DNA of 64,000 nucleotides from Chrysaora quinquecirrha (lineage: Eukaryota; Cnidaria; Scyphozoa; Semaeostomeae; Pelagiidae), in the NCBI GenBank assembly GCA_014526335.1, contig JACTAT010000326.1, positions 57,721-121,720 on the forward strand, given 5' to 3'. How positions within the stretch are numbered: position 1 is the first letter of the stretch; every line of letters begins with the position of its first letter. The translations under genes and the position numbers were made by a program. The notes below the pieces were generated by a model. That model saw nothing but the letters and a program-made list of their open reading frames with translations. It made no database searches and was not told where the DNA came from. This document shows, piece by piece, positions 4,932 through 55,600 of this stretch.

Positions 4932-5493
4932 TGACATGCGAAAATGAAACTTTGATAAAAGATACAAGCGAATTCATTTCCAGAATATATGATAAACGAT
5001 TAGAAGCAAATTAAAAAAAAAAAAACACTAGAGCATTCTAGAACCTTTATCTTTATCAACACTCAACTGTTATGTAACTTGCGTATCTTTTTCTAATTAA
5101 CGTTGTATTTTTTGTTATGTTGTAGTGCAGTTGTAGACCATGTATCATATGATATAGCGTCGAATTTGAAAAAAAAATGATCGTAGATTTTTAAAGTGTG
5201 CATCGCGCTCATGCAAGGCACCAACAATGAAGTCAAAAAAGTCTTGACAACCAAATCTCTGTGTGCATGGAGAATCCTTCCATAATAGTTTCTCCGCCTG
5301 TCAATGAAATTCGTTATGGGCGATGATTCTTTGCGAGAATTCTTCTGCTGGTTCAATACTCTATTTTGTTGCAAGGCTTGACTTGCTCTATCATTAACTA
5401 AACAATCTGAATGGCTCGGAAACGGCCATCTTAGTGTCTCTCGCCCTCTCGTCTTCAAATAGTCTTCATTAAAACACGTCGGGGAAAGGGTTC
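4932..5493. other. Spacer between zinc-ribbon ORF and kinase fragment
   Basis: Starts with an A-rich tract (about 5011-5025). The 5093-5458 - strand ORF has no recognisable domain. Nothing else is supported. Confidence 0.3.
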
Positions 5494-5960
5494 TTGAAAA
5501 TTCCTGAACCGAAAAGAAAGGTCTCGGCTATTAATGTTTTACCTGTGTTCGCATGGGAAGATCTAAACGAAATTAAGTTTCTTAGCAAAGGCCGCTTTGG
5601 TTCTGTTGAATCAGCACTATACAAGCCCAAAGGGCAGGAAGACCACCTGATTGTGATTAAAAAACTACAGAATGCTTCTGCAGCGTGCGACAGAGAATTT
5701 CGCAACGAAGCCATGTTTCTATTTGATGTCAAAGGACACAAGAATATAGTAGAGTTTATTGCAATATCGGAAACTCCCTGCTATGCATTAATGCAGGAAT
5801 ATCTTGGCCTTACTTTCACATTTTTGGTAGAGACAAGACCGTAAACTCCTTGCAACAGTTTCTCCAACAAGCTGATGAGATCTATGATTTCGAGGGCTTT
5901 GAAAACCTGCATGGCATTATTGCAAGAGACATCGTAAATGGTGTAATTTGCGGGTTTTGG
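5494..5960 (+). pseudogene. Protein kinase N-lobe fragment, truncated and frameshifted
   Basis: The reading frame from 5494 shows the start of a Ser/Thr-type kinase fold: a glycine loop (SKGRFGSV), the ATP-binding lysine in VIVIKKL, a helix-C glutamate in FRNEAMFL and the strand MQEYLGLTF. A one-base shift near 5825 moves the continuation into another frame (KTVNSLQQFL ... ARDIVNG), which stops being kinase-like just where the HRDLKP catalytic loop should follow. The catalytic loop, DFG and C-lobe are absent, so it cannot be an active kinase. Its end abuts a Tc1/mariner relic, which suggests that the missing part was lost through transposon insertion or deletion. I associate this kinase type with multicopy elements in anthozoans; that link is an inference. 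Confidence 0.6.
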
Positions 5961-5976
5961 CACGGCCCGGCAACCG

Positions 5977-9421: not shown

Positions 9422-10174
9422 GTGAAGATCATAATGACGATGATGGAGAGCATGATGATGATGAAATTTTTATAACTGCCATTAGAAATATGGTTTATTT
9501 TTTTACTCCACCCCTCCATTTTTGGTTATCCCACACAATAAAAATAATATTTTTCATTTATCCCACTATTTTCTGCCAAGGGCATAAATGACCGATCCCG
9601 AGGAACGATGTGGGTCCTGGAACAAAACAGAGCGATACATCGAAGAAAAAGACAGTGTATTGATGAAAACTGACTTCTTATTTCGAGATTTGAACCATTG
9701 TGTTACACTGTAAACCTTGCTAGCAGGAGAAAGGTGGTATATTTATGTTCATGAGATTCAGTTGTTTTTCTTTTTTGTTCTATAGAAGTATGCTGTTATT
9801 TCTTTTAGCTAAAATGTCCAGGAAATGATTGGTTCCATAAAAAGTGTATGAATATGAGAAGAGAACAATTTTTTTTTCTTAATGAGCCCCTCTCTCCAAC
9901 GAGCGCTCCTCTCAAACAAGAGCCCCCTCTCGAGGCAAAAAATCAAATCATCAGAGAGAAAAAGGTAGCTACTGGCTTTTATTGAGTAAGTTTCTTCATA
10001 GGAATTTTAGGAAAATTCGTGTTTGACATTTATATAAACGTATTGATAATGTTAATACTAGTTAACCAATTAATGAATCGTTTGTTTACATAGAATTTGC
10101 CAAGCAGTTTTACTTTAGTATTCTTAGCGTTTGTTATATTGCTTTGTATTTAAATTGTAGACCATGCATCTTTA

Positions 10175-10275
10175 GGCCCCGTTTACACTGTAGCGGATCA
10201 CTTTTTGATCCGCTACAAAAAGTGTTCCCAGTATGAAAACATGTTCTCTTTGCCTTTCCGTTTACACTGTACTGG
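10175..10275. repeat. Terminus of a GGCCCCGTTTACAC-type DNA element with hairpin
   Basis: Begins GGCCCCGTTTACACT and immediately contains a perfect 11-bp hairpin (GTAGCGGATCA, 5-base loop, TGATCCGCTAC at 10190-10216). A second copy of the start (CCGTTTACACTGTACTGGATC) follows at 10258. Related ends occur at 51429, 51762 and 63850. It could be one end of the element carrying the Myb-like ORF below, but no matching right end was found before 13345. Confidence 0.5.
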
Positions 10276-10416
10276 ATCACTTTCTGTTTGCTAAGTCAAG
10301 CATGCGTAATGTTACATCTCATCAACAGCAACAACAAGGCCTAACGTTTTGGCGCCAGAAGGTCACGTTTGTGATTTGGCAGGCAGAAGCTTGGTAGCAA
10401 TAGCAAGTAAGAGATA

Positions 10417-10566
10417 ATGGCAAAACAAATAAAAAAACAGACGAGTGATACGAATAACAACGTGGACGATGAAAAAAACTTTACATGGAGTGAGGAAGAG
10501 ATAGCTCTCCTGCTTCGAGTCGTTCTCGAATACAAAACCAGTAAAGCTGCCACTGTCATTGATTGA
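10417..10566 (+). pseudogene. Myb/SANT-like DNA-binding ORF of a repeat family, truncated
   Basis: 49 codons starting MAKQIKKQ with FTWSEEEIALLLRVVLEYKT, which has the W and acidic first helix of a Myb/SANT-like domain as found in transposon accessory proteins. TGA at 10564-10566 ends it before the second and third helices. Related residues may continue in broken frames afterwards. It lies just inside a GGCCCCGTTTACAC-type terminus, so it is probably element-encoded. Confidence 0.45.
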
Positions 10567-10628
10567 GAACGGTATTGAGTTGAAACAACAAAAAATTCAA
10601 AAAAGAAGAAATCTGATTCTTGTTGGTT

Positions 10629-10990
10629 GATAGATCTGTTTCGGAAAAAAGTTCGGTGAAATATTGAGAATCAAATTCCAGATGTGGTGCCTCGGAAATT
10701 TCACTTTTACTAAGCTCGTTGCCCGTAAGCAAAAAGCAACAACAAACTTTAATGCTAAACCTGGTCGCAAAGCTGTGCAAAGAAGTAGAAAATTAGGGCT
10801 TCCAGCATACCAATATTTATTTCAAAGCAGTAGATGCAATGCGGCAAATGATAGGCAAATGATGCAATCAATTACAACGTCAACTTCATCAATTCCAAGT
10901 GGAGCCTCTATCCTTGACGAATCATCGTTGTGGACGATGGCTTTAGTAACATCAAAGAATCTGAGCCAGATATTGTGGAAGTAGAACAGG
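10629..10990 (+). repeat. Diverged repeat copy A (pair with 12260-12605)
   Basis: Starts ATAGATCTGTTTCGGAAAAA and shares blocks with 12260-12605, including the AAATTCCAGATGTGGTGCCT block and a GTGGAGCCTNTATCCTTGAC block. The copies differ by substitutions and small deletions. Copy A keeps a 106-codon ORF (10664-10984) without a recognisable domain. Confidence 0.6.
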
Positions 10991-11691
10991 CTGGAGCAAG
11001 GATCATCTGAACCAGGTGTTAGTAGGACATTTACGCCCCGGCGTAAATGTCTGTTAACGAGAAGGCATTCATTTAGCCCCTTTTAGGAAGCTTAGTCACA
11101 AATCCCTTGTTGGTTTGACTTGGAATAAGCATCACACAGGTTCACTTCCCTCTTCAGTTCAGTTGCTCAAACGAATCATTATGTCTTCTGTTGCCTCTTT
11201 ATTACGCACGAATCAAGGAAAGGGATGTTCGTCTCTCTCGACGTGACTGGGAGCGGGCAGCTAAGCAAACGATACGCATGCGATGTGCTGCCTATGGCTT
11301 ATCAAGCACTGAAAAAATCTACTTTGGTTGCCTGCCTGTATTCGTATCTTAACCAGGATGGTGTACCTGCCCATACACCTCAGAATGATGGTCTGGACAC
11401 ACAACCAGCCACACCAGAGCCTCAAGAAGAAAGAGAGTCTACTCTTGGCCCAAGTGGGATCAATCAGTCGGGGTTACAACAAAACAGAGTTCCGTCGGGT
11501 GAATTGCGTGCGATAATTCGAGACGAGCTCCAACAGCATACACCTGTTTGTTGAAACCAGCAGCTCTCACCTGCATCGTCAATTGCAAGATCCATCCACC
11601 AAGGAGATGTTCATCTCCCATCGCAGTGCACACAAAATGGCATAACACGGCACGTTGCAAGTTGCGAAGAATCTTCGAATAAGAAATTGTA
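10991..11691. other. Decayed element sequence
   Basis: Holds a short palindrome (ACATTTACGCCCCGGCGTAAATGT at about 11028-11051, a perfect 12-bp inverted repeat) and a 109-codon ORF (11225-11554) without recognisable domain. It seems part of the same repeat-rich block as its neighbours. Confidence 0.35.
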
Positions 11692-14100: not shown

Positions 14101-14513
14101 ATTTATAAATTCATAGCGATACGATGAATTTTAGTTAATTATTTGACGCCAAGCACCTCTCGCCCAGCTTGCGTTAAAGCCGGTTCTGTGTTCTGTAAAT
14201 ATGAAAATTAAGTATTGACATGTACAGGACGCGGAAACTTCAGCAGCTTTCACTCTGTTTACATTTCTGTGTGGTCCAAACACAGTAAATCTAAAATGGG
14301 CTCGTTATCCAATCGCAGTACGGCATTTAGTCAGCTGACGAACTTTGACCAATCATAGAGCAAATCTGAGTTTCGTGCTCCTCACATGTCAATCAAACCG
14401 ATACAAAAGAAACCTCCCAAATTTCACCATGCACTCGATCAGATTTCGCACGGAAAACACATAATCAGAGCTTCAGAATAATTTTGAACTTCAGAAAATT
14501 TTTTCATTGAATC

Positions 14514-15641
14514 ATGCCTAAGCAAAAAAGTTCCGCAGCTCGACGCAGTAAAAGAACAGCTACTGTTGCCAGCACCGCAAGTTCTCGTCCAAATCGAGCT
14601 GAAGAGCAAGGTCTACAAGAAGATGAGGGGATCGTGGAGAGCCAGAACGACGCTCACAACGCCCCAAGGGATAACGTTTCACCTCCTGGAATTCACTTAA
14701 ACAGAGACCAGATGGAAGAAATCCGTGGTATCATCTCAAAGACGGTTGAAGAGCAACTCTCAGCTGTTGCAAGCAAGGCTGCAAAAACCGCCGTCGATTT
14801 GGCTTTGGGGCAGAAGTCTACCACACCAACATTGGCGAGTTTAGAAAGCATAGGAGTGACATCTGTTCCCGGGCAAGCAAGCCAGAATATCACAGTGCAC
14901 GCCGTCGATGGTGGCTTCACACCAGAGATACCTCCGGCCTATGTGAAAGCAATTCAAAATGGTGAGTTTTTTGATCTTTCTAAGCTGTTGCCGGAAAATT
15001 TGCATCATCTTGCGGCTAACGAGCCTGATGGAAACTTGGCTGTGGTCATTGGTCCAAATTCTGAATTGAAGTTGACGAAGCGTGGTTCGCCTAAAAAGAT
15101 CCAGGACATGAACGACTGGACTAGCGCTTTTCTTGTATATACGAAAATCATTGTAGATAAGTTCCCAGCACGTGCTCGGGAACTTGTAGAATACTTAGAC
15201 ATAATTCGTTACGCTGCAAAATATCATAGTTCGTTAGCTTGGTTGCTCTATGATTATAAATTTCGATATAAAGCTGCTAATGATAAATCCCTTTCGTGGG
15301 GGCTCATTGACCAGCAGTTGTGGATGCGCGTATTCACTGTAAATCAAACGCAGTTAATTAAAGATTATAATATTTTTAACAATGGACCCTTTAGTATTAA
15401 CGAGGGAGTTGGGGCTAGAAGGGTCGGAACATGCCGCAACTTCAATCGGGCCGTTGCCTGCCATTTTACCCCCTGCCGCTTCCGCCACGTGTGCAGCCGT
15501 TTTGGCTGTGGAGGATCCCATCCCGCACTGGAGTGCCCCCTTGGAGGGCATAGTACCACCTCAGCCAGCTCTGTCGGTTCCAGGACCGAATCCCGTACCG
15601 AATCTCGCACCGAATCTAATAGACGCAGCAATCGTAAATGA
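14514..15641 (+). CDS. DIRS gag-like protein (375 aa)
   Basis: Open from ATG at 14514. The N-terminus is basic and Ser/Thr-rich, followed by a helical region and a central globular part (residues ~130-290). The C-terminus has a Cys/His-rich segment (CRNFNRAVACHFTPCRFRHV, then C-x4-C and HPALEC), a zinc-finger type usual for DIRS nucleocapsids, and ends in a Ser/Arg/Thr-Glu repeat tail. It presumably packages element RNA. Its last 260 bases overlap the RT ORF in another frame. The frame is intact, unlike the recombinase. Confidence 0.75.
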   Translation: MPKQKSSAARRSKRTATVASTASSRPNRAEEQGLQEDEGIVESQNDAHNAPRDNVSPPGIHLNRDQMEEIRGIISKTVEEQLSAVASKAAKTAVDLALGQKSTTPTLASLESIGVTSVPGQASQNITVHAVDGGFTPEIPPAYVKAIQNGEFFDLSKLLPENLHHLAANEPDGNLAVVIGPNSELKLTKRGSPKKIQDMNDWTSAFLVYTKIIVDKFPARARELVEYLDIIRYAAKYHSSLAWLLYDYKFRYKAANDKSLSWGLIDQQLWMRVFTVNQTQLIKDYNIFNNGPFSINEGVGARRVGTCRNFNRAVACHFTPCRFRHVCSRFGCGGSHPALECPLGGHSTTSASSVGSRTESRTESRTESNRRSNRK

Positions 15642-17274
15642 GTGTAATTATCAGCGTATCGATAGTAATGTAGTTAGAACACCGGTTAATGTAACTTTTC
15701 TTAAAGATTCTTTGCTCGGTCATCCAGACCCGTTTTTTGTTAGTAACTTGTGTAATCAGTTAACGTATGGTGCTCGTATCGGGTATGAGGGCCCAAGGTT
15801 ACCGAAGGCATCACGCAATTTGCCTACTGCTTTCCTTCAGCCCGACATTGTGTCACATAATATTGCCCAAGAAGTGAAATTAGGGCGTACAGCGGGTCCT
15901 TTTGAGTCACCCCCTTTTCCTAATTTTCAGGTGTCACCTATAGGTCTTGTCCCTAAGAAGAACTCGGACAAGTATCGCACTATATTTCATTTATCCTATC
16001 CACGGTCTGGTAGTTCAATAAACTCAAATATCGATAAGGAGTCCTATTCTTTGAGCTATGTTACAATTGATGACGCCATATCTGCTATTATTAACCTTGG
16101 GAGGGACTGCCAAATGGCAAAAACGGACATTGAATCTGCTTTCCGGCAATTTCCAGTCCATCCAGATGACTGGGAACTATTAGGAATGAAATGGGATGGA
16201 AAATATTACTATGACAAAGTGCTGCCTTTTGGCCTACGTAGCGCCCCTTTTCTGTTTAACCAACTTTCTGATGCCTTGGAATGGATCCTAGTTAACAAAT
16301 GTGGGATATCTTTCGTCACCCATCTGCTAGATGATTTTCTCATTATCGAACCCGACAGCGCACCCCCAACCTCACTTTCTAATTGTCAGTTGAGTCTGTC
16401 TAGTATGCTCTTAGCCTTTAAACAACTTGGAATTCCTCTTGCACCCAGTAAGACACAGGGTCCCTCTACAGAGTTAGAATTCCTCGGCATTATTCTTGAT
16501 TCTCATAACATGCAAGCGCGCCTGCCGGACGATAAGGTCGCCAGACTGAAAGAGGAACTAGCCCTATGGACGTCCAAACGCTCAGCTAAACTAAAGCAGT
16601 TACAGTCACTCATAGGCTATCTTAACTTTGCCTGCAAAGTAATAGCCCCTGGGCGCGTATTCCTTCAGCGCATTATTCATCTAACCGTGGGCGTTTCCCA
16701 ACCCCATCATCACATTAGGCTTAACGGGGAGTTCTTTAAGGACATTGAAATGTGGAAGACCTTCGTGGAAAGCTGGAATGGGACAAGTTTCTTCCTGAAT
16801 ACCGTCTGGGAAAGCTCCGACACCCTCCAACTATACACGGATGCCTCCGGCTCGCAAGGATATGGGGGTATATGTCAGACTCAATGGTTTCAGGGGCCTT
16901 GGAGGGCACATCAAACTTTAGGCACCCCGGGTATTAGCATAGCATGGCAGGAATTGTTAGCTATTGTAGTTGCTTGCGCTATTTGGGGCAATTCATGGTC
17001 ACGTAAAAGGGTTATTCTCAACTGCGATAACATAGCTGTGGTGCATGTTATAAATACAAAGCGCTCCAAATGCCCGAGGATTATGCAACTTCTGCGTAAG
17101 CTAACACTAATTTCTATGCAGCATAACTTTTATGTTAAGGCCGCACACATTGCAGGATCAACAAACGAAATAGCTGATTCACTATCTCGTTTTCAGGTTC
17201 AACGCTTTCGCCACTTAGCCCCATGGGCCGATCAATCTCCGCAGAAACTTCCCATGGACATCTTGCAACTATGA
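15382..17274 (+). CDS. DIRS reverse transcriptase / RNase H (630 aa)
   Basis: RT palm motifs are visible: MAKTDIESAFRQFPVHPDDW (first catalytic Asp), PFGLRSAPFLFNQL, and the catalytic HLLDDFLII around residues 313-321. RNase H follows, with YTDASGSQGYGG near residue 485, a WQELLAI glutamate and NCDNIAVV, ending with IADSLSRFQ. These make the cDNA and degrade the RNA template. The first ~80 codons overlap gag and may not be translated from this ATG; the true start is uncertain. The stop TGA overlaps the recombinase ATG in an ATGA arrangement (17271-17274). Confidence 0.85.
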   Translation: MDPLVLTRELGLEGSEHAATSIGPLPAILPPAASATCAAVLAVEDPIPHWSAPLEGIVPPQPALSVPGPNPVPNLAPNLIDAAIVNECNYQRIDSNVVRTPVNVTFLKDSLLGHPDPFFVSNLCNQLTYGARIGYEGPRLPKASRNLPTAFLQPDIVSHNIAQEVKLGRTAGPFESPPFPNFQVSPIGLVPKKNSDKYRTIFHLSYPRSGSSINSNIDKESYSLSYVTIDDAISAIINLGRDCQMAKTDIESAFRQFPVHPDDWELLGMKWDGKYYYDKVLPFGLRSAPFLFNQLSDALEWILVNKCGISFVTHLLDDFLIIEPDSAPPTSLSNCQLSLSSMLLAFKQLGIPLAPSKTQGPSTELEFLGIILDSHNMQARLPDDKVARLKEELALWTSKRSAKLKQLQSLIGYLNFACKVIAPGRVFLQRIIHLTVGVSQPHHHIRLNGEFFKDIEMWKTFVESWNGTSFFLNTVWESSDTLQLYTDASGSQGYGGICQTQWFQGPWRAHQTLGTPGISIAWQELLAIVVACAIWGNSWSRKRVILNCDNIAVVHVINTKRSKCPRIMQLLRKLTLISMQHNFYVKAAHIAGSTNEIADSLSRFQVQRFRHLAPWADQSPQKLPMDILQL

Positions 17275-18195
17275 ACCGCGATCTCAATTTATACCTCTCG
17301 AATTCATTGGCTTCAAACACTAAAAAATCATACAGCGCAGGTGAAAAGCAGTTTCTTAACTTCTGTTTTGGTTTTAAACTTCATGAGCTAGGCCCAATAT
17401 TACCCGCCAGCGAGGCAGTGCTGTGTTATTTTGCCGTTTTCCTAGCCAAATCCGTGAAACATGCCACCATCAAAAGCTACCTTTTTGCTGTCAAACATCT
17501 GCATCTGGAAAATAGCTTTAACCTGGATCTGGGAAAATGTCTTCGCTTACAATACGTACTTAGGGGTATCAAAAGATATCAGGGAAAATCTAGCAAAATA
17601 AGACGCCCCATTACAATCGATCATCTGAAGTTGTTCTTTCATCTCCTTCAACCAAACATTACTGGTAACTTTGACAGCATCATGCTGTGGGCCGCCATCT
17701 GTCTGGCATTCTTTGGTTTCTTGCGTATAAGTGAATTTACCTGTACTCAGCCCTCGATTCACAAAAGAACTTGTCATTTTCGGATATTCAATTGCTTCCA
17801 ACACCGAATAACCCTGCCCTTTTGAAGATTAATCTCAAGTCTTCAAAGACGGACCCATTTAGAAAAGGGTAACGCTCACAATAGGAAAGACAGACAATGA
17901 GGTCTGTGCTGTTCAGGCCGTTCAAAGATATCTTCTTATTTCTCCGTATCAAGAAGGACCATTTTTTCGATATAAAACGGGCTCTCCTCTTTCAAGAACC
18001 TCTTTCACTCAAGATATCAGAGCATTATTATCCAAAAGCGGTCTTTCGTCATCTGAGTTTGCCGGTCACAGCTTTAGGATTGGTGCGGCCACCTCTGCCG
18101 CCGCGGCACAAATGCCCTCATGGCTAATAAAGACCCTTGGCCGCTGGACCTCCGACTGCTATGAACGCTACGTGAGAACCCCGATTCAGTGCTAA
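17271..18195 (+). pseudogene. DIRS tyrosine recombinase, frameshifted
   Basis: Lambda-integrase-like recombinase that would integrate the circular cDNA. The SAM-like N-terminal domain reads SNTKKSYSAGEKQFLNFCF and continues to the first catalytic Arg in FFGFLRISEFT (about 17724). Two single-base frame changes follow, near 17775-17785 and near 17868. The C-terminal catalytic residues are still readable: the HSFRIGAATSAA box (His 18067-18069, Arg 18076-18078) and LGRWTSDCYERYV with the nucleophilic Tyr at 18160-18162. Stop TAA 18193-18195. A 5' extension to ATG 17223 is possible, but the ATGA overlap at 17271 favours the later start. Confidence 0.75.
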
Positions 18196-18646: not shown

Positions 18647-19509
18647 ATTTATAAATTCATAGCGATACGATGAATTTTAGTTAATTATTTGACGCCAAGC
18701 ACCTCTCGCCCAGCTTGCGTTAAAGCCGGTTCTGTGTTCTGTAAATATGAAAATTAAGTATTGACATGTACAGGACGCGGAAACTTCAGCAGCTTTCACT
18801 CTGTTTACATTTCTGTGTGGTCCAAACACAGTAAATCTAAAATGGGCTCGTTATCCAATCGCAGTACGGCATTTAGTCAGCTGACGAACTTTGACCAATC
18901 ATAGAGCAAATCTGAGTTTCGTGCTCCTCACATGTCAATCAAACCGATACAAAAGAAACCTCCCAAATTTCACCATGCACTCGATCAGATTTCGCACGGA
19001 AAACACATAATCAGAGCTTCAGAATAATTTTGAACTTGCCTAAGCAAAAAGTTCCGCAGCTCGACGCAGTAAAAGAACAGCTACTGTTTCGTGGAGAGCC
19101 AGAACGACGCTCACAACGCCCCAAGGGATAACGTTTCACCTCCTGGAATTCACTTAAACAGAGACCAGATGGAAGAAATCCGTGGTATCTTTAAAGACGG
19201 TTGAAGAGCAACTCTCAGCTGTTGCAAGCAAGGCTGCAAAAACCGCCGTCGATTTGGCTTTGGGGCAGAAGTCTACCACACCAACATTGGCGAGTTTAGA
19301 AAGCATAGGAGTGACATCTGTTCCCGGGCAAGCAAGCCAGAATATCACAGTGCACGCCGTCGATGGTGGCTTCACACCAGAGATACCTCCGGCCTATGTG
19401 AAAGCAATTCAAAATGGTGAGTTTTTTGATCTTTCTAAGCTGTTGCCGGAAAATTTGCATCATCTTGCGGCTAAGAGCTTCAGAATAATTTTGAACTTCA
19501 GAAAATTTT
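18647..19509 (+). mobile_element. Second, deletion-riddled partial copy of the DIRS 5' end
   Basis: Repeats 14101-15018 (5' non-coding region plus the first third of gag) with no visible substitutions but with clean internal deletions: the bases corresponding to 14492-14513, about 64 bases after 14566, and a few bases at 14730. After GCGGCTAA it jumps at the shared word GAGC back to the block GAGCTTCAGAATAATTTTGA (19475-19509), which is normally at 14467-14502. The pattern of identity plus deletions at short matches points to reverse-transcriptase template switching. The sequence at 19510-19545 could still belong to it. Confidence 0.7.
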
Positions 19510-19814
19510 TCCCACCCACCCCCAAATTCCCAGTGCGGCTACTTCTCCAACTCACATGACGGAGCTGGTATTTTAATTCAGGCTGGACTATTCTATTTTC
19601 TTTATTTTACACGTATGTTATCATCTGCTTGATTTTATATTATAATTAAGGTATGCATGATTGAGCTAATTCTGGACATTATGAGGAACTTTGCAATTCG
19701 TAGTGCTTTTTTAATATAATTTTTTCTGTGTTTCAGTTAGATTATGATATGATAGCCTGTCTTGTTTCAGTTGTTTTATGACATGATAAATTTGAAGTGG
19801 TTCTCCGCTATGAA
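19510..19814. other. Junction region between DIRS copy and transposase C-half
   Basis: AT-rich, no ORF. The TTTCAG words around 19732 and 19767 could be the end of an ancestral transposase intron. The exact DIRS right border within 19510-19560 is not resolvable by eye. Confidence 0.3.
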
Positions 19815-30843: not shown

Positions 30844-31954
30844 AAATGGTGATGGTACTTACTATTAAATCTCTTACCCTCTTACCGCAGATAATGAGTT
30901 GTGATTACCCTTTTTCAGCAATCACATGCAAGAGGTCCAGTTCCTATTGCTTTGTTGAGTAGATCTGAATTCATGTTGACAGGTAAATTGCCTAAGAGTT
31001 CTAAAGATGAATTAGGCATGGTTTCTCCTAATAATAAGCCTACTGTACCTACAGGTATCTCAGTAGCTTATTCAGGAGTCAATTGATGAAGATCATCCAG
31101 ATTATGTGCCAACGAATTGAGTTAAAAAAGCTGTCACAGAAGAAAACAATGCTAAAATAGATGAATCGATTTGAAAGGAAAAAGAGGTCGATCAAGTAAA
31201 AGAAACATTTTAATATCATCAAAAAAAAACCAATAGAGGTTTCTCAATCAGAAATGATCAACAGAAGAATAAAAGTATCACTAATGAATCCAATGAAATT
31301 CACGAACAATATCAAACAACATATACTCATACCTATACCTACAGATAATATTCTCGCAGACTACGAGGAAATGACAGAAGCTGAATCTAATATGGACATA
31401 TCTGCCAGTGAGGGAGCAGCGAACACAGCGAAAGTCCTGGCGATACTCTCAACATAGAGTGTGGTCAAAGACCCCAAAAAGATAGAAAAAGATCCAAACC
31501 TGAGACAGCTATAACACAAAAAAAAAACAGAAAAGGTGAAGACCAAAACAGAGCTGAGAAAGGGACGTCTGGTGCCAAGCGCATGGGCCTGTCCAATAAC
31601 AGGATCCCTAAAAGGACATAACCAAAAATAAAGAGTGACACTGAAGCCAACAAAAATAAACAAAAAGGTGGCGAAGATCATTATGAAATTATAAAACAAA
31701 TCTCAAATAGTCTTGCTAGTCAATACTTTCATGCTGACAAGCAAAAAGAATGCGCTATATAGCTGAAAAAAGTGGGAGATACTCAATTTCTTACTCCCAA
31801 TATCATTATAAAGTACAAGAATGATATATTCTCTGATATCTTATCGGAGATGTCAGAGGCAAATGACACATTCGCAAAAACAATGTGCGGCCTCTTGGCC
31901 AAACATCATAAATCTATGAGCACAGGACAAGTGCACCAAATCCTATAAATTAAT
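30844..31954 (+). other. Decayed downstream part of the LTR element and unassigned AT-rich sequence
   Basis: 30901-31086 is an ORF with SHARGPVPIALLSRSEFMLT and TVPTGISVAYSG, which resembles the linker between protease and RT in cnidarian gypsy polyproteins. After 31087 there is A-rich sequence with a helical Glu/Lys-rich reading near 31680-31945; no RT motif is seen before the gap. Confidence 0.4.
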
Positions 31955-32709
31955 NNNNNNNNNNNNNNNNNNNNNNNNNNNNNNNNNNNNNNNNNNNNNN
32001 NNNNNNNNNNNNNNNNNNNNNNNNNNNNNNNNNNNNNNNNNNNNNNNNNNNNNNNNNNNNNNNNNNNNNNNNNNNNNNNNNNNNNNNNNNNNNNNNNNNN
32101 NNNNNNNNNNNNNNNNNNNNNNNNNNNNNNNNNNNNNNNNNNNNNNNNNNNNNNNNNNNNNNNNNNNNNNNNNNNNNNNNNNNNNNNNNNNNNNNNNNNN
32201 NNNNNNNNNNNNNNNNNNNNNNNNNNNNNNNNNNNNNNNNNNNNNNNNNNNNNNNNNNNNNNNNNNNNNNNNNNNNNNNNNNNNNNNNNNNNNNNNNNNN
32301 NNNNNNNNNNNNNNNNNNNNNNNNNNNNNNNNNNNNNNNNNNNNNNNNNNNNNNNNNNNNNNNNNNNNNNNNNNNNNNNNNNNNNNNNNNNNNNNNNNNN
32401 NNNNNNNNNNNNNNNNNNNNNNNNNNNNNNNNNNNNNNNNNNNNNNNNNNNNNNNNNNNNNNNNNNNNNNNNNNNNNNNNNNNNNNNNNNNNNNNNNNNN
32501 NNNNNNNNNNNNNNNNNNNNNNNNNNNNNNNNNNNNNNNNNNNNNNNNNNNNNNNNNNNNNNNNNNNNNNNNNNNNNNNNNNNNNNNNNNNNNNNNNNNN
32601 NNNNNNNNNNNNNNNNNNNNNNNNNNNNNNNNNNNNNNNNNNNNNNNNNNNNNNNNNNNNNNNNNNNNNNNNNNNNNNNNNNNNNNNNNNNNNNNNNNNN
32701 NNNNNNNNN
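31955..32709. other. Assembly gap (755 N)
   Basis: Run of N. ORFs called across it have no meaning. It may hide the rest of the LTR element. Confidence 0.99.
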
Positions 32710-33261
32710 ACAACGACCCTGACTTGGTTGGTTAAGATCATCAACTGTTAGGCCTAAAACACAACTTTTGGGAGACAGTAAGTGGAAAAACGTTAGCTAA
32801 CGAACTTCAACATACAAAACCTAAGAACGAACAATTTCATAACAACAAGAAAGAGTATATAAGCTTGGTTGTTTGACTTCTGAGTTGCTTACAGTAATTC
32901 AATTGAGTTGCTTAATGTTAAGGTCAGTTCAGCCCTAGTTGCTTGTTGGGCGGTTGCTTATTTAAAAAAAGTGTATGAAAAGGGCAACAACGAAGTCGAG
33001 AAAAAGGAAGACAGCTGCACAAAATACCAATCGTCTGACCATGTAATCAAAAGAAATCATTACATGAATATAAGATGGTTAATCAATCATACTACATAAT
33101 GTTATAGGTTTAGGTTGCAATTTTCCAAGTAACATTTTCTGTCAAGTGTGCAACGCTAAATTCTGAAATACCCTTGCTTTATTTTTACCGTTCCGACGAA
33201 AACTGTTTTACAGTGACTTGCAAAAGGTGTCTCTTGATTCTTCCCATCTGGAGATTGCCTA
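32710..33261. other. Non-coding sequence after the gap
   Basis: Contains a TATATAAG word at about 32855 in AT-rich sequence and a local repeat of GAGTTGCTTA (32882 and 32906). No gene recognised. Confidence 0.3.
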
Positions 33262-37600: not shown

Positions 37601-40600
37601 AATAAAGCAATAATTAAAAGCTTCTTTATAAGAAAGAACAAAAAAGTTTCAAATGCTGGTAATCGAAATTCCTTAAACAGTTTCTGGTCAGTTTATATAA
37701 AAAATAAAATGGTTATGTTGAAAATCAAAGGTGGCAGGGCAGTGCTGATGATTGTAACAAGAAAATTTGACGAATTCTGGAAATGATTCTCCTCACTGCA
37801 TAGCTAAAAATTCCTATAAGCAAAAATTTGCCAAGCTAGCAATATTTTATATAACCAACCTAATTAAAAAGCTTTTCCAGATTTGCAATTTCTCAAAGGA
37901 GGGCTTAGCAGTTTTGCAAACTTGTAGGGCTTAGCAGGTTAGCAAACTTGGAGGGCTTAGCAGATTAGCAAACTTGAATACTTATAATATTTTCAAATAT
38001 ACGGTTGATTTTGGCTGCGTGGAAAACACCAGAAATTAAGGGCTTTAAAAAAGATTTGCCTATTGTTTTTGCATAACATGTATGTAAAGTTTTATTCATC
38101 TAGTCAAGTAGACACTTTCTATTTTATAAAGAACCTAGTTCCTAAAGTTCCTCATGTTTGGACCTCTTTTGATTACATTGCAGTACCAAAAGTTCCTAGT
38201 CCCTTAATAGTTCCTTAATTTCAACTGCATATTTCTATGTAAGGTTGGTACCTGGCCTAAGGTTCCGAAACGCATGCAGTTAGGCTCATATCACATGAGC
38301 ACAAATTCGTATTCGGCTTATATGAATAATTTCACCAGCCGCCCCATTCTCAAATGCCAGACGCGTTCCGCTCTTATTGGAGCTCATCAGTGACATGTGT
38401 GAGAATCGAACCGGGGTTTATTGCGTGAGAAGCACAAGTGCTAATCATACGACCACCGAATTTGGGCTGACTGGTGAGTAACTGCGCGAGTTTTAGACTC
38501 GTATCACACGAGTACCGAAGCCTTGCATATTACTATGTAAGGTTGGTACTTAGCCTAAGGATATGTAGCTAATATAGTAATATGCATAGTAATATGCATA
38601 GAAGCCTTACATAGTAATATGCAAGGCTTCGGTACTCGTGTGATACGAGTCTAACGAAACGCGTTTGGCATTTGAGAATGGGGTGGCTGGTGAAATTATT
38701 CATAACTGCATATTTATTGTCATGACTATTATACAGAGATACTTGTATTTGAGCAAAGCTGGAAACTAGACTCGAGGAAACATTTGATAAAATATGGGTA
38801 ATATTTTCAAAATATATAAGTGAGTGGAACCGTCTTCCTAATTCTTAATCTTCGGCAAAATGTCTTAGCGATTCATCTTTAGTAGTATAAGTTCTTTTAA
38901 ATTTTTGACCTTCTACATGTAGTTTCCTTAATCAGTGGTTCTTTAAAAGAAAAGCTTCTTAACCCCTTACACAAGTTGTTTGAAATATTGCTATCGAGCT
39001 GAAGTGTTGGGCGCTGAGCAAATCAACTGAGCAAATCAACTGAATAGAAATTACAAACGACGTATGTAGCGAGTGTAGCAATCAAGTGCTAAATGATACT
39101 ACCAGCTACAGCAAGAGCGAAAGTCTATACACGCAGTTTTTTTATAAGCAACCGCTTATAAGCAACCAAAATGTAGAAGGCCTTAAACTTTAAGCAACGT
39201 ATAGTACCACAGGAAAAAGACCTAAGCAACATCGTAACTATCAATACAGTCTCTATATGGTAACAATTACATAGTACTTCTTGACTGATGTTATTTATAG
39301 TATTACTTTGCTGTATAATTAAGCAACAACTAAGCAAATTTTGCTACTAAAAGGTGGCCATAAGAGGTCCAAAAATAAGCAACTTTTTGAACTAGACCCG
39401 AGCGAAGTTGCTTATAAAAAAACTGCGTGTACTTACAAATCACTGATTTTGATACAACAACTGGCTTGAAAAACATCTGGTACTCCATTCTTCAAATACA
39501 ATACCGCAATATGTGAATAGTCTGAACATGCCAATACATTATTTTGGTATTCCACAGCAGTTATTGGTGATTTAGACATCTCACCATGGATCTCACGCCT
39601 GTAAAGGAAGTTAAGAATCGATTATTTCTAATAATTTTTTAGGCTCAAATTGTTAAGAAAATTAAATGGACAGTGACTATGGACAGCGTTCTAAGGCAGA
39701 GTATTGATGATTGATTTGATTTGAAACTTTTGAACTGCAGTCCTTGTATGTTAAAAATTACGTCGTTACGTGGCAAGCAGTGCAAGCAAAGATTCTCACA
39801 CAGAAAATGATTTTCGAAAATTGCTTTAACACTTAAGATTCTTTTACTGTTGTCTTTACTGAAAAAAGTGATTACAGAGTCTATAGATTTAACAAAGACT
39901 GGGGTAATAGAACGATAAAAAATGTAGGAGCCCGGCTTTGGAACGGCATACCGGAATTTGATGACCCGGGACGCAGGTGGGACCCGGGACGTGGGACTCA
40001 AGTGGGACGCGGGACCCGGGACGGAAGTGGGACGCGGGACTCAAAACGGAAGTGGGACGTGGGACTCAGGTGGGACCTGGGACGCGGGACTCAGGTGGGA
40101 CCCGGGACGCGGGACTCAGGTGGGACCCGGGACCTGGGACTCAGGTGGGACCCGGGACACGGGACTCAGGTGGGACCCGGGACGCGGGACTCAGGTGGGA
40201 CCCGGGACCTGGGACTCAGGTGGGACCTGGGACCTGGGACTCAGGTGGGACCCGGGATGCGCGACTCAGGTGGGACCTGGGACCTGGGACTCAGGTGGGA
40301 CCTGGGACCTGGGACTCAGGTGGGACCTGGGACCCAGGACTCAGGTGGGACCTGGGACCTGGGACTCAGGTGGGACCTGGGACGCGGGACTCAGGTGGGA
40401 CCTGGGACTCAGGTGGGACCCGGGAACCGGGACTCAGGTGGGACCTGGGACTCAGGTGGGACCCGGGACGTGGGACGCAGGACACGGGTGGGACCCGAGA
40501 CACGGGACTTAGGTGGGACCAGGGAAGCGGGACTCAGGTGGGACCTTGGACCTGGCAACGGAATGGGACCTGAGACCTGGGAAGCAAGTTGAGAACTTGG

Positions 40601-43600
40601 ACCTGGGACGCATATTGGACCAGAAACCTGGGGCCAGGGACTCAGTTGGGACCTTAAACTCTGCGCAAGGATGGGGCCTGGGACAAGGTTTTGACGTGGA
40701 AAGTGGTTGCTCGCTGGACTATTAGTAGGGCGTTTGACTAGAGAAATTTGATCACTTGATAGAAAAACTGAATCAACATCATTAAATGTCTATGAAAATG
40801 CTTTTCACAAAAATGTTTAAAAAGTTACAAATGAAGCCAAAGTTCATAACCGTTCATTAATTTTTAAACTTAAATTCTACTCATAATGCCAACGAATTAA
40901 GTGTAACAGAAAACGAGAATAAAACTCATGATTTTAGTAAACAAAAATGCGTTAAGTAACCATTATTGCTCAATTTTCCCCCTGTTGTACAAATTTGGAA
41001 TCTGGAGATTTGAAACTACTAAGTTAGTCGCTGCGATGATTTGAATTCCAAACCGAAAAAAATGATTGTTGAAGTTGAAGAATGAAACCTTTTTTGTTGA
41101 AATTAGACATGCTTCATCAACATTCCTTGAAAAGCGGCTCCTAGAGAAAGGCAGTGCATACTTTATAGGGCATAAATCCTTACAGGGTGGGAATTTTCCT
41201 GTTTAACGATGTTCTAGTTAAGATAACAAAACAACAGAAGAAACAAACATGCGTAACGTTATAAAAATAAGAGATACAGTAATATATACTTCGTAATTCA
41301 AACGGTGTAGTCAAGATCTTCAATTCAAAAATTAAATTCCTATGCCACAATTTCGCAAAATCTGTTTGTGCTCAGGAAGCAAGAAAGGCTTCAGTTGCGG
41401 AGGAACTACAATCATTTGCGGAGAAAACATTTGATTGTTGTGCGCTATGCAAGTGCGATTAAAGTGATAATACAGTATGTGAAACAAACTCTTGCTTATT
41501 CTAATAAAATATAGAGAAAGGGCGCAGGCATTTATGACAATGTATGATTATTATTGGGACGACATTTTAAAAAAACAAAATCAACCCAAAAGAGAAAGGG
41601 GCCACCGAATGTGGTGAAACCCAAGGTCTAAAGATACATAACACCAGCGGATGCTACTCCAAATGTAACAGCACCATCAGCTCATTCTTCTGATGTTCAA
41701 ATGAGAGTAGTAGATGTTCCTAATCAGCTGCATCAACCACTCGTCTCTGGCATGCAAGCGGATTCAGCCTTAAATCCACCGCCACAACCAGATCCACCAG
41801 CAAATGGATACGTACTGGCACTTCTACGATTTTGCCATAAGAATGTTGCTGTTTGCTATAAATGCAGTGGCAGGTTCTATCAAAATGGGTACCCTAGCCC
41901 ACCCAATGATATGGTCGTTGTTTCAAAAACACAAAGATCATATTTTGATCAAAAAGCACGTGAGTGGAGGATATCTGCAGAATTTGCTAAAGTTTATTAT
42001 CACTTTAATCGCACTTGCATAGCGCACAACAATCAAATGTTTTCTCCGCAAATGATTGTAGTTCCTCCGCAACTGAAGCCTTTCTTGCTTCCTGAGCACA
42101 AACAGATTTTGCGAAATTGTGGCATAGGAATTTAATTTTTGAATTTTAGATCTTGACTACACCGTTTGAATTACGAAGTATATATTACTGTATCTCTTAT
42201 TTTTATAACGTTACGCATGTTTGTTTCTTCTGTTGTTTTGTTATCTTAACTAGAACATCGTTAAACAGGAAAATTCCCACCCTGTAAGGATTTATGGGAT
42301 GTTCTTTTAACTGGACTCCACGACCTCACGACCCCAGACCATACGACCCTACGACCTCACGACCATACGACCCTATTTTTATTAATATTTTTTTATTTTC
42401 ATAAATACTAATTTCTAAGTTGATTTTCATTAACAATTATCAAGATGACTTTGATTTTGATTTATAAAACCATTCGGAATCATTTAATAGGTGAACTTGA
42501 CTTATATCAGTAGCTATCATGACATCAATGCGGTTTGTGCAAAAGTGGACAGCAGTTTGCATTATTGTTATTCGCGAGTCTTGGATTACTTTAATGGCAT
42601 ATTGGTGCCTGAAGTTATTTCTAACATTAAACATGTCAGCATGGCGTGTCACCAATGGAATGATAGGTAAACTTGAGCAACACAACGAAGCATTTTCGCA
42701 TTGGCCACCTAAAACTCAAAAGCAATTTTATTTGTGACTACGAATGGCCTATGGTCTTGAAGGTTAAAAGTGATGTTGCGTTTAAAGGTACGTATAGTTT
42801 ATGCATTTGATATCCCTCGACCAGCCTCGACCAATTCAAAATGTAGCTAAAATCGGGACTGTAAACATAGAAGCTATTTTATAAGAACACCTGGCTGGCT
42901 TTGATTTCAGCCTGCTTGTTTCTTGTTTTTCAAGTGATTTTTCAAGTACTTGTCACCCCCCTTCCCTTCTCGAAAACATGTTTAAAATGCATCTCCGGGC
43001 AAGGGCTTAACGCTGGTGAATTATGCTTGTGCGCATCTCAAATAGTTTGTGAGGTAGCAAAAAATATTGACCCAAATTTCAGCCTGGTGTTTCTTAAAGT
43101 TTTAAAAACGTGCACAAATTCTTTATATGAGCGGTTTTTGTAGCTATGTATTAGGTCCAGTTTTAACATGGGACCTAAAGTTAAAAATTTTTCAGTTTTT
43201 TCTTGCTCTTAACTTCTGGTTCGGCAGTCAGCATTCGCAAATTAGATAGACCGCTTAAAATAAATATTATTTTTCTACGGACAAAAATATAATTTTCTAC
43301 CCATCTCGAACAAAAATAGAATTTAGCATTGCAGGTACCGATGTAATGTAATATAGCATTGGAGAATGAAACAGGATTGATGAATACAGTAGCAATGTTT
43401 ACATATCAAACCGCTTTTTTGACCTCTGGGCAAACTGTCGAGGATAACACGATACTGAAATAAGTCAAGTTCACCCATCAAATGATTCCGAATTATTTTA
43501 TAAATCAAAATCAAAGTCATCTTGATACTTTTTAATGAAAATCAACCTAGAATTCACTATTTATGAAAATGAAAAATCATTAATAAAAACAGGGTCGTAT

Positions 43601-46600
43601 GGTCGTGAAGTCGTAGGGTCGTATGGTCTGGGGTCGTGAGGTCGTGGAGTCCAGTTAAAAGAACATCCCAAGGATTTATGCCCTATAAAGTATGCACTGC
43701 TTTTCTCTAGGACCCGCTATTCAAGGAATGTTGATGAAGCATGTCTAATTTCAACAAAAAAGGTTTCATTCTTCAACTTCAACAATCATTTTTTTCGGTT
43801 TGGAATTCAAATCATCGCAGCGACTAACTTAGTAGTTTCAAATCTCCAGATTCCAAATTTGTACAACAGGGGGAAAATTGAGCAATAATGGTTACTTAAC
43901 GCATTTTTGTTTACTAAAATCATGAGTTTTATTCTCGTTTTCTGTTACACTTAATTCGTTGGCATTATGAGTAGAATTTAAGTCTAAAAATTAATGAACG
44001 GTTATGAACTTTGGTTTCATTTGTAACTTTTTAAACATTTTTGTGAAAAGCATTTTCATAGACATTTAATGATGTTGATTCAGTTTTTCTATCAAGTGAT
44101 CAAATTTCTCTAGTCAAACGTCCTACTAATGGTCCAGCGAGCAACCACTTTCCACGTCAAAACCTTGTCCCAGGCCCCATCCTTGCGCAGAGTTTAAGGT
44201 CCCAACTGAGTCCCTGGCCCCAGGTTTCTGGTCCAAAATGCGTCCCAGGTCCAAGTTCTCAACTGCGCCCCTAGGTCCCAGGACCAACTTGCTTCCCAGG
44301 TTTCAGGTCCCATTCCGTTACCAGGTCCAAGGTCCCACCTGAGTCCCGCTTCCCTGGTCCCACCTAAGTCCCGTGTCTCGGGTCCCACCCGTGTCCTGCG
44401 TTCCACGTCCCGGGTCCCACCTGAGTCCCAGGTCCCACCTGAGTCCCGGTTCCCGGGTCCCACCTGAGTCCCAGGTCCCACCTGAGTCTTGCGTCCCAGG
44501 TCCCACCTGAGTCCCAGGTCCCGGGTCCCACCTGAGTCCCAGGTCCCGGGTCCCACCTGAGTCCCAGGTCCCGGGTCCCACCTGAGTCCCAGGTCCCGGG
44601 TCCCACCTGAGTCCCAGGTCCCGGGTCCCACCTGAGTCCCGCGTCCCGGGTCCCACCTGAGTCCCGCGTCCCGGGTCCCACCTGAGTCCCGCGTCCCGGG
44701 TCCCACCTAAGTCCCGCGTCCCGGGTCCCACCTGAGTCCCAGGTCCCGGGTCCCACCTGAGTCCCGCGTCCCGGGTCCCACCTGAGTCCCGCGTCCCGGG
44801 TCCCACCTGAGTCCCGCGTCCCACTTCCGTTTTGAGTCCCGCGTCCCACTTCCGTCCCGGGTCCCGCGTCCCACTTGAGTCCCACGTCCCGGGTCCCACC
44901 TGCGTCCCGGGTCATCAAATTCCGGTATGCCCTTTGGAACAAGCTCCCAGAGCCAGTGAAATCGATTTCTAACCATAAAGCTTTCAGTAAGCAAATAAAA
45001 CAAGCTCTAATAGCTAAGTACTGATATACATATATTGAGATATACATGTATACACAAAAACATATGCAGTCTGACCAGAAAAGAAAAAAAAAATGACAGT
45101 TAGTATTAGTTGTTTCATTTATATTATTGTAGGTTTCGCAACCTTTTAGTTATGTTAGTTGTGTAATCTTTAATGATAAGCTTCTTAAAAAACATACAGT
45201 ATTCTTGTAATTCTTTACATATACTTTCTAGATTTTATCATATATACGTATTTTTTTTCTATTACACTTTATTATAAGCTCTGCTTTTCTTGGGCCGTGC
45301 AGATTTACATCCTTTTTATATTAATTAATTATATTGTAGTTGTAACGATGTTTTTCTGCAAATAAAATTGAATTGAATTGAATTGAATACTGTATAAGAT
45401 CAGGTATATGAAACGTTCACATGTACATAATTTGTATCGAGTTCAGAAGAGTAAACAGCATATAAACTGACCTGATTGGCTATACAATACACATAAAAAT
45501 AGTAAAAACCACACAAGAAACAGAGGTGAAATGGAGAAATGTTCGAAATTTCAATGCGATTAAAGTCCATAGGTCTTCAAAAAACTAGGTTATCCTTTCT
45601 TCCAAGTTCAGTAAATCACGAATACCGGGGCCTAGCACAAACTATAGTGCTTGCACTTGCACAGATACGGGACCTGCAGATCTGCCTTTCTAACACACAA
45701 AACTGTTATCTGAGATGAGCCTTGAAATCTCCTGTCATTATTTTGGGTATACAAAGCTCCGTGGAAATTTTAGAGCTCTTCTGAAGCAATGACGAGCTTT
45801 CGCAGCGAAAAGTATCTAGAAGTCATGTCTACTTTCAGTCATTTGCGCCATGAGCGTGCGAACAGAAAAAGCAGTTCTATGTATCGTAGTGTTGTAATTT
45901 TTCCAGAGAACTTTTTCTGAGTCGAGTTTCTGCTAAAGATTTTTAAGTGAATAGTTTTTGAGTAGTACAAAACTGATTCCACCTTAGTTCATTGTTTCGA
46001 TCGGCTTCTGACGTTCATAGTCTGAAGAGTGTCAGACGAAAAACGCTTTTAAGTATGCCCGAAAATGTTTCCGTTGTTTATCGCATTTCTAAGATTTCTA
46101 AGCTTATAACAGAGTAAAAACGTTTGTAATACCGCAACAAAGGCAGCAACATATACTCTTAACTGGACAACAGGTTTATAAAAAATAATTAGGGAAAATT
46201 TGACAAACCTGCAGAGCTGAGTACCATTGATATCCATTGTAGTCAATGTACATTCATCATCACCAACAACAAATTTATCATTGGAAGTGAAGCAGACACA
46301 GTTGACGCTTTTACCACCAACCTATACAGAAAAACGTATAATCACCTTAAAGTGTCTTCCCGCTGTATCCCGCTAGCTGATAGGTGATTAAAACACAATG
46401 CCGATCCGGCTTCGCTTTCTGATTGGTGCATTTCGATTCGCATCTGGGTATAAATTTCGCCTTAGTCATTTGTTTCGGTCTGTTTCGGAGGTTTAGATTC
46501 TCAAGAGTCTCAGGCGAAAAAGTATGCCGAAAATGTTTCCGCTGTTTAATGAAATTCTAAAAGCATTTTAATGGTACGTTATGTATTTTGGCTCATAACG

Positions 46601-52600: not shown

Positions 52601-55600
52601 CAAACGGAATAATTAGCCATAGTGATATGCTTGTGGACTTATACCCTAATTCTTCCTGGCTATATTTCAATGTGTTCCGCAGAAAAGCAACATAGTCCAT
52701 TTATCAGTCAACATCTTGTCGTCTTAGCCAAGAATAAAAATGTACTAAGCAAGAACTGCGAGGCAAGCTGAAGTGTAGGTAAAGGTGAGGGTGAAATGGT
52801 GTTATTAGCGCCTTCATTAGATTTCAGAAGTAGATGAACTTATGAGACCTCGGCGCTGGTTGTGGCATTATTGAATGCTGACTGGTATTACAAGACCAGT
52901 ATATTTCTGTAAGGCACCACCCAATCCAAACTACAAACTATCAGTATCTAGATAAAAAAACGATTATGAAATAGCAATTAAATATGTAATATGCATCCTG
53001 TCAACATTTCAATGCGTGTTCAACCAGTTCAGCATTAAAGCAACATACAGTACATTCGTCTGTAAACATCTAGTCGTATTAGCCAAGTCTATAAATGTAC
53101 TTAACAAGAACTGTGGGGCGAGCTGAAGTGAAGGTTAAGGTGAGGATGAAATGGAGTTTTTAGTGCCATTCGGTAGGATTTCAGAAGTGGAAGGACTAAC
53201 GAGACGTCAACGTTGGCTGTGATACTATCGAATGTGTAAATGCGTAACAAGACCAGTCTATTTTGGTAAGGTGCCACCCAATGCAGTCTGTCAACAATCC
53301 AGTCTTGGCGAACATGACTATAAATATGCTTTACAAGAACTGCAGGGCAAACTCCAACCAATTCTTCACAGGAGCTAGCTAGGCGGCCTAGCAAACAAGC
53401 AGTGGCCCTTATAGCTAGCCTGAATACTAATTTAAGAATATTTGAGGATTCATTTTGAATGGCTTCCATTTTTTAAATGTGCCATCACCACTTACTGTCA
53501 TTGCATCTACCTCTTCTAAACTTGGTCGACTTGATTAGTTGCTTGATAAACGAAGTTAACAAGAACTGCGGGCTAGCTAGGTTGCCTAGCACACGAGCAG
53601 CGGCCATCATAGCTAGTCTGAATACTAATTTAAAAATACTTGAGGATTCATTTTGAATGGCTTCCATTTCTTAAATGTGCCATCATCACTTACTGTCAGT
53701 GCATCTACATCTTCCAAGCTTGATCGATTTGATTTAATTGCTTGACAGACATACTTAGCAAGAACCACGGGCTAGCTAGTCTGCCTACAAACAAGCAGCG
53801 GCCCTAATAGTTATAGTCTAAATACTAATGTACAAATACTTGAGGATTCATTTTGAATGGCTTCCATTTCTTAAATGTGCCATCATCACTTACTGTCAGT
53901 GCATCTACATCTTCCAAGCTTGATCGATTTGATTTAATTGCTTGACAGACATACTTAGCAAGAACCACGGCCTAGCTAGTCTGCCTACAAACAAGCAGCG
54001 GCCCTAATAGTTATAGTCTAAATACTAATGTACAAATACTTGAGGATTCATTTTGAATGGCTTCCATTTCTTAAATGTGCCATCATCACTTACTGTCAGT
54101 GCATCTACATCTTCCAAGCTTGATCGATTTGATTTAATTGCTTGACAGACATACTTAGCAAGAACCACGGCCTAGCTAGTCTGCCTACAAACAAGCAGCG
54201 GCCCTAATAGTTATAGTCTAAATACTAATGTACAAATACTTGAGGATTCATTTTGAATGGCTTCCATTTCTTAAATGTGCCATCATCACTTACTGTCAGT
54301 GCATCTACATCTTCCAAGCTTGATCGATTTGATTTAATTGCTTGACAGACATACTTAGCAAGAACCGCGGGCTAGCTAGTCTGCCTACAAACAAGCAGCG
54401 GCCCTAATAGTTATAGTCTAAATACTAATGTACAAATACTTGGGAACTCACCTTAAATGGCTTCCATTTCTTCAATGTTCCATCATCACTTACTGTCAGT
54501 GCATCTACATCTTCCAAGCTTGATCGATTTGATTTAATTGCTTGACAGACATACTTAGCAAGAACCACGGGCTAGCTAGTCTGCCTACAAACAAGCAGCG
54601 GCCCTAATAGTTATAGTCTAAATACTAATGTACAAATATATGGGAACTCACCTTAAATGGCTTCCATTTCTTTAATGTTCCATCATCACTTACTGTCAGT
54701 GCATCTACCTCTTCTAAACTTGGCCGATTTGATTTGATTGCTTGGTTCTTTGAAAGGGAAGTAACGTCTTCAAAACTCCACTCGCCAGCTTCCGGTTTCT
54801 ACAAATGAGTAAATTAGATAAAGCAGACCAACATTGATACGAATGGTCATTCTTGTTACAGAAATTTCGTGTTTATTTTCAATTCCATTATAGAGTTTGA
54901 GCCTTATATCCTAGTAAAAACGACAGAGCATGTGAGAAACAGCAAGCAGATAGGATATGATCACAATTACCTTATGATTCAGGTAAAAAGAAAATCAAAA
55001 GACAAAAAATGGAAAAACTTACGGCTGGTGCCCAAAGACAGATATTATTCACTCTCTGATCATGCGCATTTATTTTTGTTATTTCAGCACCTTTGTGTGT
55101 CCATATTCTTAACGAGCCATCAAATGCCACAGAAGCCACACATCCAAACTATACGCAAATGAAAATAAAATAATATATGGAAATGAGTGGAAATCAAACT
55201 GGACTATATCGTTTTTTATTAGATTAGTGTCAGTCCTAATGAAAATGTTTCTCTACGATATTTGGCGTAAAATAGAAAGAAGGTCCTTATTAAAGCAATG
55301 TCTTACAATGAAAGGGATTCTATGGGGTCAGTATGTAATTTTCAACCTTGGCAATCAACTTGAAGTAGTCAAACTCGCCTAGATTCAGGGTTGTCAGAGG
55401 AAGTGCTGGGGTTCGGCGACGTTACTATTTGTTTGGAAAGTTTAAAGAATCATAACTAGTTTTTGAACGAAGCTTCTAGCTATAAAACCCTCATGCCTAA
55501 TGTATTACTCGAATGGCTTTCCTTATCTCATTGAATTTTACAGATACGTCCTGTGACCAAATAAGCATCCTTCCCAAGAAATGAGGCAAATCATTGTATG

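Follow-up and report, generated by a model that had tools for sequence, protein, structure and literature searches.

Drosophila FB4 (FB-NOF), placed by Dfam in the class MULE-NOF, makes 9-bp target duplications and has foldback arms of short tandem repeats. FB4 is treated in PMC8277862. In Tm1, a Mutator/Foldback family of root-knot nematodes, duplications of 8-10 bp, mostly 9 bp, flank 45 of the 53 complete elements (PMC3169594). For Tetris of Drosophila virilis, membership in Mutator has been suggested in a paper according to which most foldbacks seem to be Mutator elements; the transposase that moves Tetris stays open because no autonomous copy could be found (PMC4079207). Mutator-like elements (MULEs) have duplications of 8-11 bp, and the animal clades Phantom, Ghost and Spectre, with a DDE transposase and in some cases a SWIM or C2H2 finger, include four cnidarian sequences in Ghost (PMC6446971). 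Here we analysed a foldback element that interrupts a long interspersed nuclear element (LINE) in 64,000 nucleotides of the scyphozoan Chrysaora quinquecirrha (the window; assembly GCA_014526335.1, contig JACTAT010000326.1, positions 57,721 to 121,720). We consider it very likely that this copy is a non-autonomous deletion derivative of a DNA transposon of the Mutator (MULE) superfamily.

The window copy and its full-length parent

The window element spans 39945-44931, with the termini GGCATACC...GGTATGCC, and shows the long inverted arms, partly of tandem repeats, and the short middle of a foldback. The ends, the 9-bp duplication, the palindromic arms and the minisatellites that an earlier note had read from the DNA alone were all borne out. 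The note took the whole interval for one element; the element is real, but 1,384 bp of it belong to something the note did not mention, a nested second foldback with one copy of its 10-bp duplication. Without these the outer element measures 3,603 bp. The features are as follows.

39862..39944, plus strand: 5'-truncated LINE, coding part left of the insertion (homology to other copies starts at about 39862)
39936..39944, no strand: left 9-bp target-site duplication CTTTGGAAC, also a single copy in all ten empty LINE copies
39945..41472, plus strand: left arm, the parent's left terminal inverted repeat (TIR), 98% to it outside the minisatellite
39963..40552, plus strand: 25-bp subterminal minisatellite, about 24 copies
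41473..41994, plus strand: spacer between the arms, remainder of the parent interior
41567..41568, no strand: deletion junction, parent C246 1506 joined to 9712 with a 2-bp overlap
41632..42135, plus strand: open remnant (167 aa) of the probable last exon of the transposase gene, homologs found
41995..44931, minus strand: right arm, split by nested element 42296-43669 together with one duplication copy
42286..42295, no strand: left 10-bp duplication of the nested element, AAGGATTTAT
42296..43669, no strand: nested foldback, 1,374 bp, ends GGGATGTTC...GAACATCCC, arms of ~217 bp 93% alike, own subterminal repeats
43670..43679, no strand: right 10-bp duplication of the nested element, AAGGATTTAT
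44331..44913, minus strand: 25-bp subterminal minisatellite, about 24 copies
44932..44940, no strand: right 9-bp target-site duplication CTTTGGAAC
44932..45388, plus strand: LINE 3' end, coding to 45021, then 3' untranslated region

The inverted arms are 1.53 kb long; 39945-41181 and 43670-44931 are 95.5% identical. A scan of the window for starts as far as position 58,000 and spacings of 0.3-15 kb found only this one place where 22-bp termini in exact inverted orientation are flanked by an exact 9-bp duplication; a 9-mer matched by chance in 27 of 2,000,000 random position pairs. Six-frame translation of the element matched no Pfam family, scans of viral contigs gave no relatives, and a phage search returned only weak, unrelated-looking matches.

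The genome (327,998,173 bases in 740 contigs) contains 125 exact occurrences of the 22-bp end, 65 in forward and 60 in reverse orientation, against none for the reversed control, and we examined 100 of these ends individually. Five full-length copies share the same ends: C246 (11,567 bp), C304 (11,604 bp), C121 (11,655 bp), C372 (13,890 bp) and C324 (14,489 bp). They have minisatellite-bearing TIRs of about 1.4 kb and carry, in the order seen in C246, these open reading frames (ORFs).

C246 3512-4342: protein kinase ORF
C246 4285-5164: overlapping ORFs, kind not assigned
C246 6750-8459: DDE ORF
C246 9237-10277: ORF with a SWIM-like pattern and a conserved C-terminal domain

The DDE ORF is open over 570 codons in C246, C304, C324 and C121 and is broken by a one-base gap in C372. 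The DNA of this region is 99.9-100% identical among the five; it has 14 genome matches, and the nine beyond these five are partial, eight of them at 67-70% and the remaining one at 97% over 335 bp. In an alignment of homologs, among which the two species named are both cnidarian, both D residues and the C and H of a CxxH motif between the second D and the E were present in all 40 sequences, and the E in 35 of 35 ungapped ones. Pfam MULE was matched (E <= 0.01) by 26 of the 40, although the parent's own protein (P0008) was not one of them. Between them the parent's protein and its homologs match the MULE, Transposase_mut and IS256 models, the last at E 5.8e-5, below its cut-off. The single-sequence structure model was poor; the best-ranked solved structure was ISCth4 of the IS256 family (PDB 6xg8, 6xgx; Foldseek E 5.4e-6). 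The last ORF has no Pfam match for the motif that we take to be SWIM-like. The ORF in the window spacer is the end of this last ORF (99.5% identical over 188 aa); its coding homology begins at 41569, with an in-frame stop interrupting it shortly before 41632. The parent, as a Mutator-like (MULE/IS256-type) DDE element, confirms the Mutator reading; its DDE ORF and the SWIM-like ORF after it are probably later exons of one gene. Such a transposase lies between the ends of the parent and not of the window copy. A relative of the autonomous type that the earlier note had proposed to look for has been found: five full-length copies carry a MULE/IS256-type DDE gene between the same ends, with the main ORF open in four.

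Aligned to C246, the window copy consists of 1-1506 plus 9712-11567, which leaves out 8,205 bp as a single internal deletion. The parent's TIRs form its arms, and parent 1411-1506 plus 9712-10139 make up its spacer, so that the arms require no added sequence. The foldback architecture is therefore present, as the note had it, but was not built in the window copy.

The insertion site can be read directly. When the flanks are joined with one copy of the duplication, an open frame runs through ...GARLWNKLPEPVKS... to a stop, and each of the ten other LINE copies fetched has one CTTTGGAAC, the same motif and no insert; from about 39862 onwards the ten are 95.7-99.4% identical to the joined flanks. 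These ten are the non-window matches longer than 400 bp that begin at query position 1, six shorter such matches being left out; for the right-flank repeat, the best 40 of 322 first-look candidates were scored. No reverse transcriptase was found in the 5'-truncated window copy itself. The identity of the host repeat was tested on another copy (L124), in which a 608-aa ORF has a reverse transcriptase (RVT_1, E 5.5e-37) in frame with the same GARLWNKLP... C terminus, where the ORF ends. The claim that two halves of a LINE ORF rejoin in frame holds, with the proviso that only about the last 55 codons of a 5'-truncated LINE are split.

Copies, target duplications and competing explanations

We paired the ends of 35 copies: the first search supplied 22, a pattern list 11, and the transposase search two that are full-length. 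Of these 35, 22 are flanked by exact duplications, 16 of 9 bp and six of 10 bp, within the 8-11 bp expected of Mutator; all 22 duplications differ from one another (37% G+C). They were found in 17 of 20 copies under 3.4 kb, in five of ten at 3.4-9 kb and in none of the five full-length ones. The earlier note had named copies lacking 9-bp duplications as grounds for refuting it, and these grounds hold in part: 13 of the 35 lack any duplication, all five full-length copies among them. Together with the transposase-bearing parent, the 22 duplications support its assignment to Mutator. Two of the 13, both on contig C302, come from a local cluster of ends and are perhaps not simple pairs. In this cluster (C302:1183887-1204401; only the ends were read), six element ends lie 1.3 to 7 kb apart in partly alternating orientation, and two apparent pairs have mirror-image flanks; it is perhaps a tandem array built from the element.

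Internal breakpoints were mapped on C246 for the first 22 copies, the other 13 pairs lying outside the mapping. Three copies (C304, C324, C246) are full-length. The window breakpoint, 1506/9712, is common to five copies (window, C157, C202, C341, C224), and 740/9808 to ten short copies, all with duplications. The breakpoint 1139/9135 occurs in both C405 and C609, which each differ further; C92 shows one of its own (4090/9257), and for C141 only one side could be placed. In a tree built from the unique portion of the arms (the 31 of 42 arm matches with >=420 bp), the ten short copies stand apart from the rest (support 98/98), but most inner forks are unresolved. Junction microhomology was rejected as a general rule, with 2 bp at the window junction and 1, 0 and 0 bp at three others checked. 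Because shared breakpoints occur at loci with different duplications, the deleted forms themselves must have transposed; because they have no transposase gene, they presumably moved in trans. Copies are 98-99% identical to the parent, and judged by sequence the family is real and looks recently active.

We propose that one ancestral parent copy lost ~8.2 kb of its interior in a single event, for example by interrupted gap repair, and kept both TIRs and the end of the transposase gene. This short form would then have transposed to several sites, one being the window LINE, with a 9-bp duplication, before a different foldback inserted in its right arm. The parent transposase, whose exon structure is predicted here, may mobilise the short form in trans and may bind the subterminal repeats.

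Several observations weigh against a Mutator derivative. P0008 spans the whole MULE profile but reaches 16.4 bits (E 0.012), below the 27.6-bit cut-off, and the Foldseek TM-scores to ISCth4 are low (0.20-0.25 by query). Target duplications are found in none of the five full-length copies versus 22 of the 30 others (Fisher p = 0.004), and in only two of the five copies with the window breakpoint. The element might instead be a foldback of another superfamily, Galileo-like (P superfamily) or hAT-type, with a merely look-alike architecture. For Galileo the target duplication is 7 bp (PMC2775673), yet all 22 duplications found here are of 9 or 10 bp and none of 7 or 8 bp; with the MULE, Transposase_mut and IS256 matches and the ISCth4 hit set beside them, we regard such an origin as highly improbable. 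Equally improbable is a foldback built in its own lineage, its arms having grown through a new inverted duplication or a hairpin event. Arm identity does rise from 95.5% farther out to 99.3% in the inner 302 bp (41171-41472 versus 41995-42296), but the parent TIRs end at the same place (1410 and 10140), are 99.1% alike over their unique part, and the parent supplies the window spacer in full.

It is also very unlikely that the palindrome and the long copies are artefacts of assembly, arising from inverted-repeat mis-joins or collapsed copies. All five full-length copies are nearly identical and without duplications, and among the contigs listed many are sized in multiples of 500, as may follow scaffold editing. 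A mis-join would not, however, produce the exact duplications at both ends of the window copy and 21 others, and ten copies at different loci share one breakpoint. Shuffled flanks should have left exchanged duplications, but no partner of at least 8 bp was found among the 60 unmated ends (exact ends, 100 of 125; mismatched ends were not sought systematically); on the same count, we rejected flank exchange between the examined copies as the cause of the missing duplications. An artefact is unlikely for the short copies, while the long ones may be affected. Long-TIR elements of the Galileo kind recombine ectopically and exchange duplications (PMC2775673); such recombination, or assembly trouble with near-identical 11.6-kb repeats, might bear on the missing full-length duplications. 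A deletion derivative of a MULE remains the reading that we prefer.

The nested foldback, the parental kinase and other parts of the window

The nested foldback is unrelated to the outer element and belongs to a multi-copy family of its own. Its arm gave 115 candidate genome places at first look, of which the best 40 were scored. Exact 8-10 bp duplications flank seven of ten further pairs (eight of 11 with the window copy) and are absent from three; since most end-read pairs carry them, this family also resembles a Mutator-type foldback. The search for a transposase belonging to it found none. The longest copy seen, of 8.8 kb (C429:3596242-3604630, L063), was rejected as an autonomous partner, as it contains an LTR-retrotransposon-like insertion (LTR, long terminal repeat) and did not match the MULE proteins tried.

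In all five full-length copies the kinase ORF (Pfam Pkinase, E 2.6e-25) is uninterrupted and enclosed by the TIRs. A kinase-bearing parent is less ordinary than a foldback Mutator architecture. It is conceivable, although we lean the other way, that the parent represents a new kind of animal MULE in which the kinase, next to or fused with an uncharacterised Cys/His domain, is a functional component and not passing cargo; it might then, for example, regulate its own transposase or the host response. The ORFs that follow the kinase resemble a 'cysteine protease' at most loosely, and this interpretation was dropped when Pfam and PDB searches gave no support.

Elsewhere in the window, a Cys-rich ORF at 4239-4928, presumably zinc-ribbon-like, is followed by a protein-kinase fragment at 5473-5963 that is 42% identical over 50 aa to the transposon kinase; the region may be a further kinase-bearing element or may represent a relative of the kinase that belongs to the host. 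Long overlapping ORFs at 14511-18195 include a reverse transcriptase (RVT_1, E 2e-13), with a partial repeat of the first ORF at 19158-19559; those after it we take to resemble a tyrosine recombinase, as in DIRS-type elements, although the one tried had no Pfam match. A 200-bp tandem repeat (6.9 copies at 94%) occupies 53374-54744, and 31949-32735 is a run of N.

Comparison with described foldback and Mutator elements

Foldbacks can be orphans. Here one genome holds a transposase-bearing parent, derivatives with shared breakpoints and insertions with readable empty sites; because the whole series sits in one genome, one can follow how a long-TIR Mutator element gives rise to a foldback, and mobilisation of the short form by the parent is thereby open to experiment. 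That five near-identical full-length copies should carry an open kinase gene between their TIRs is also unexpected. At the level of titles and abstract beginnings, with most subscription papers outside this scope, we met neither a kinase-bearing MULE nor a cnidarian foldback.

Foldback Mutator architecture is in itself of a known kind, as Tm1 and Tetris attest; it is the parent-to-derivative series and the kinase ORF that raise the present family above the routine. Its transposase is only 9-14% identical to that of the bacterial insertion sequence ISCth4. The animal clades Phantom, Ghost and Spectre are described with TIRs of 14-500 bp, as against 1.4 kb here (PMC6446971). Tetris resembles the present family in its tandem-repeat TIRs of up to 1,735 bp, the lack of a conserved ORF and duplications of 8-10 bp, but no autonomous copy was found for it, whereas here transposase-bearing copies occur in the same genome (PMC4079207). 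Tm1 likewise has composite TIRs that contain internal repeats, short derivatives alongside elements that encode a transposase, and even a nested second inverted-repeat element; compared by description only, it differs in its internal repeat of about 14 bp and asymmetric 7-bp terminal motifs, in contrast to the 25-bp unit, the exact inverted 22-bp ends and the kinase ORF of the Chrysaora parent (PMC3169594).

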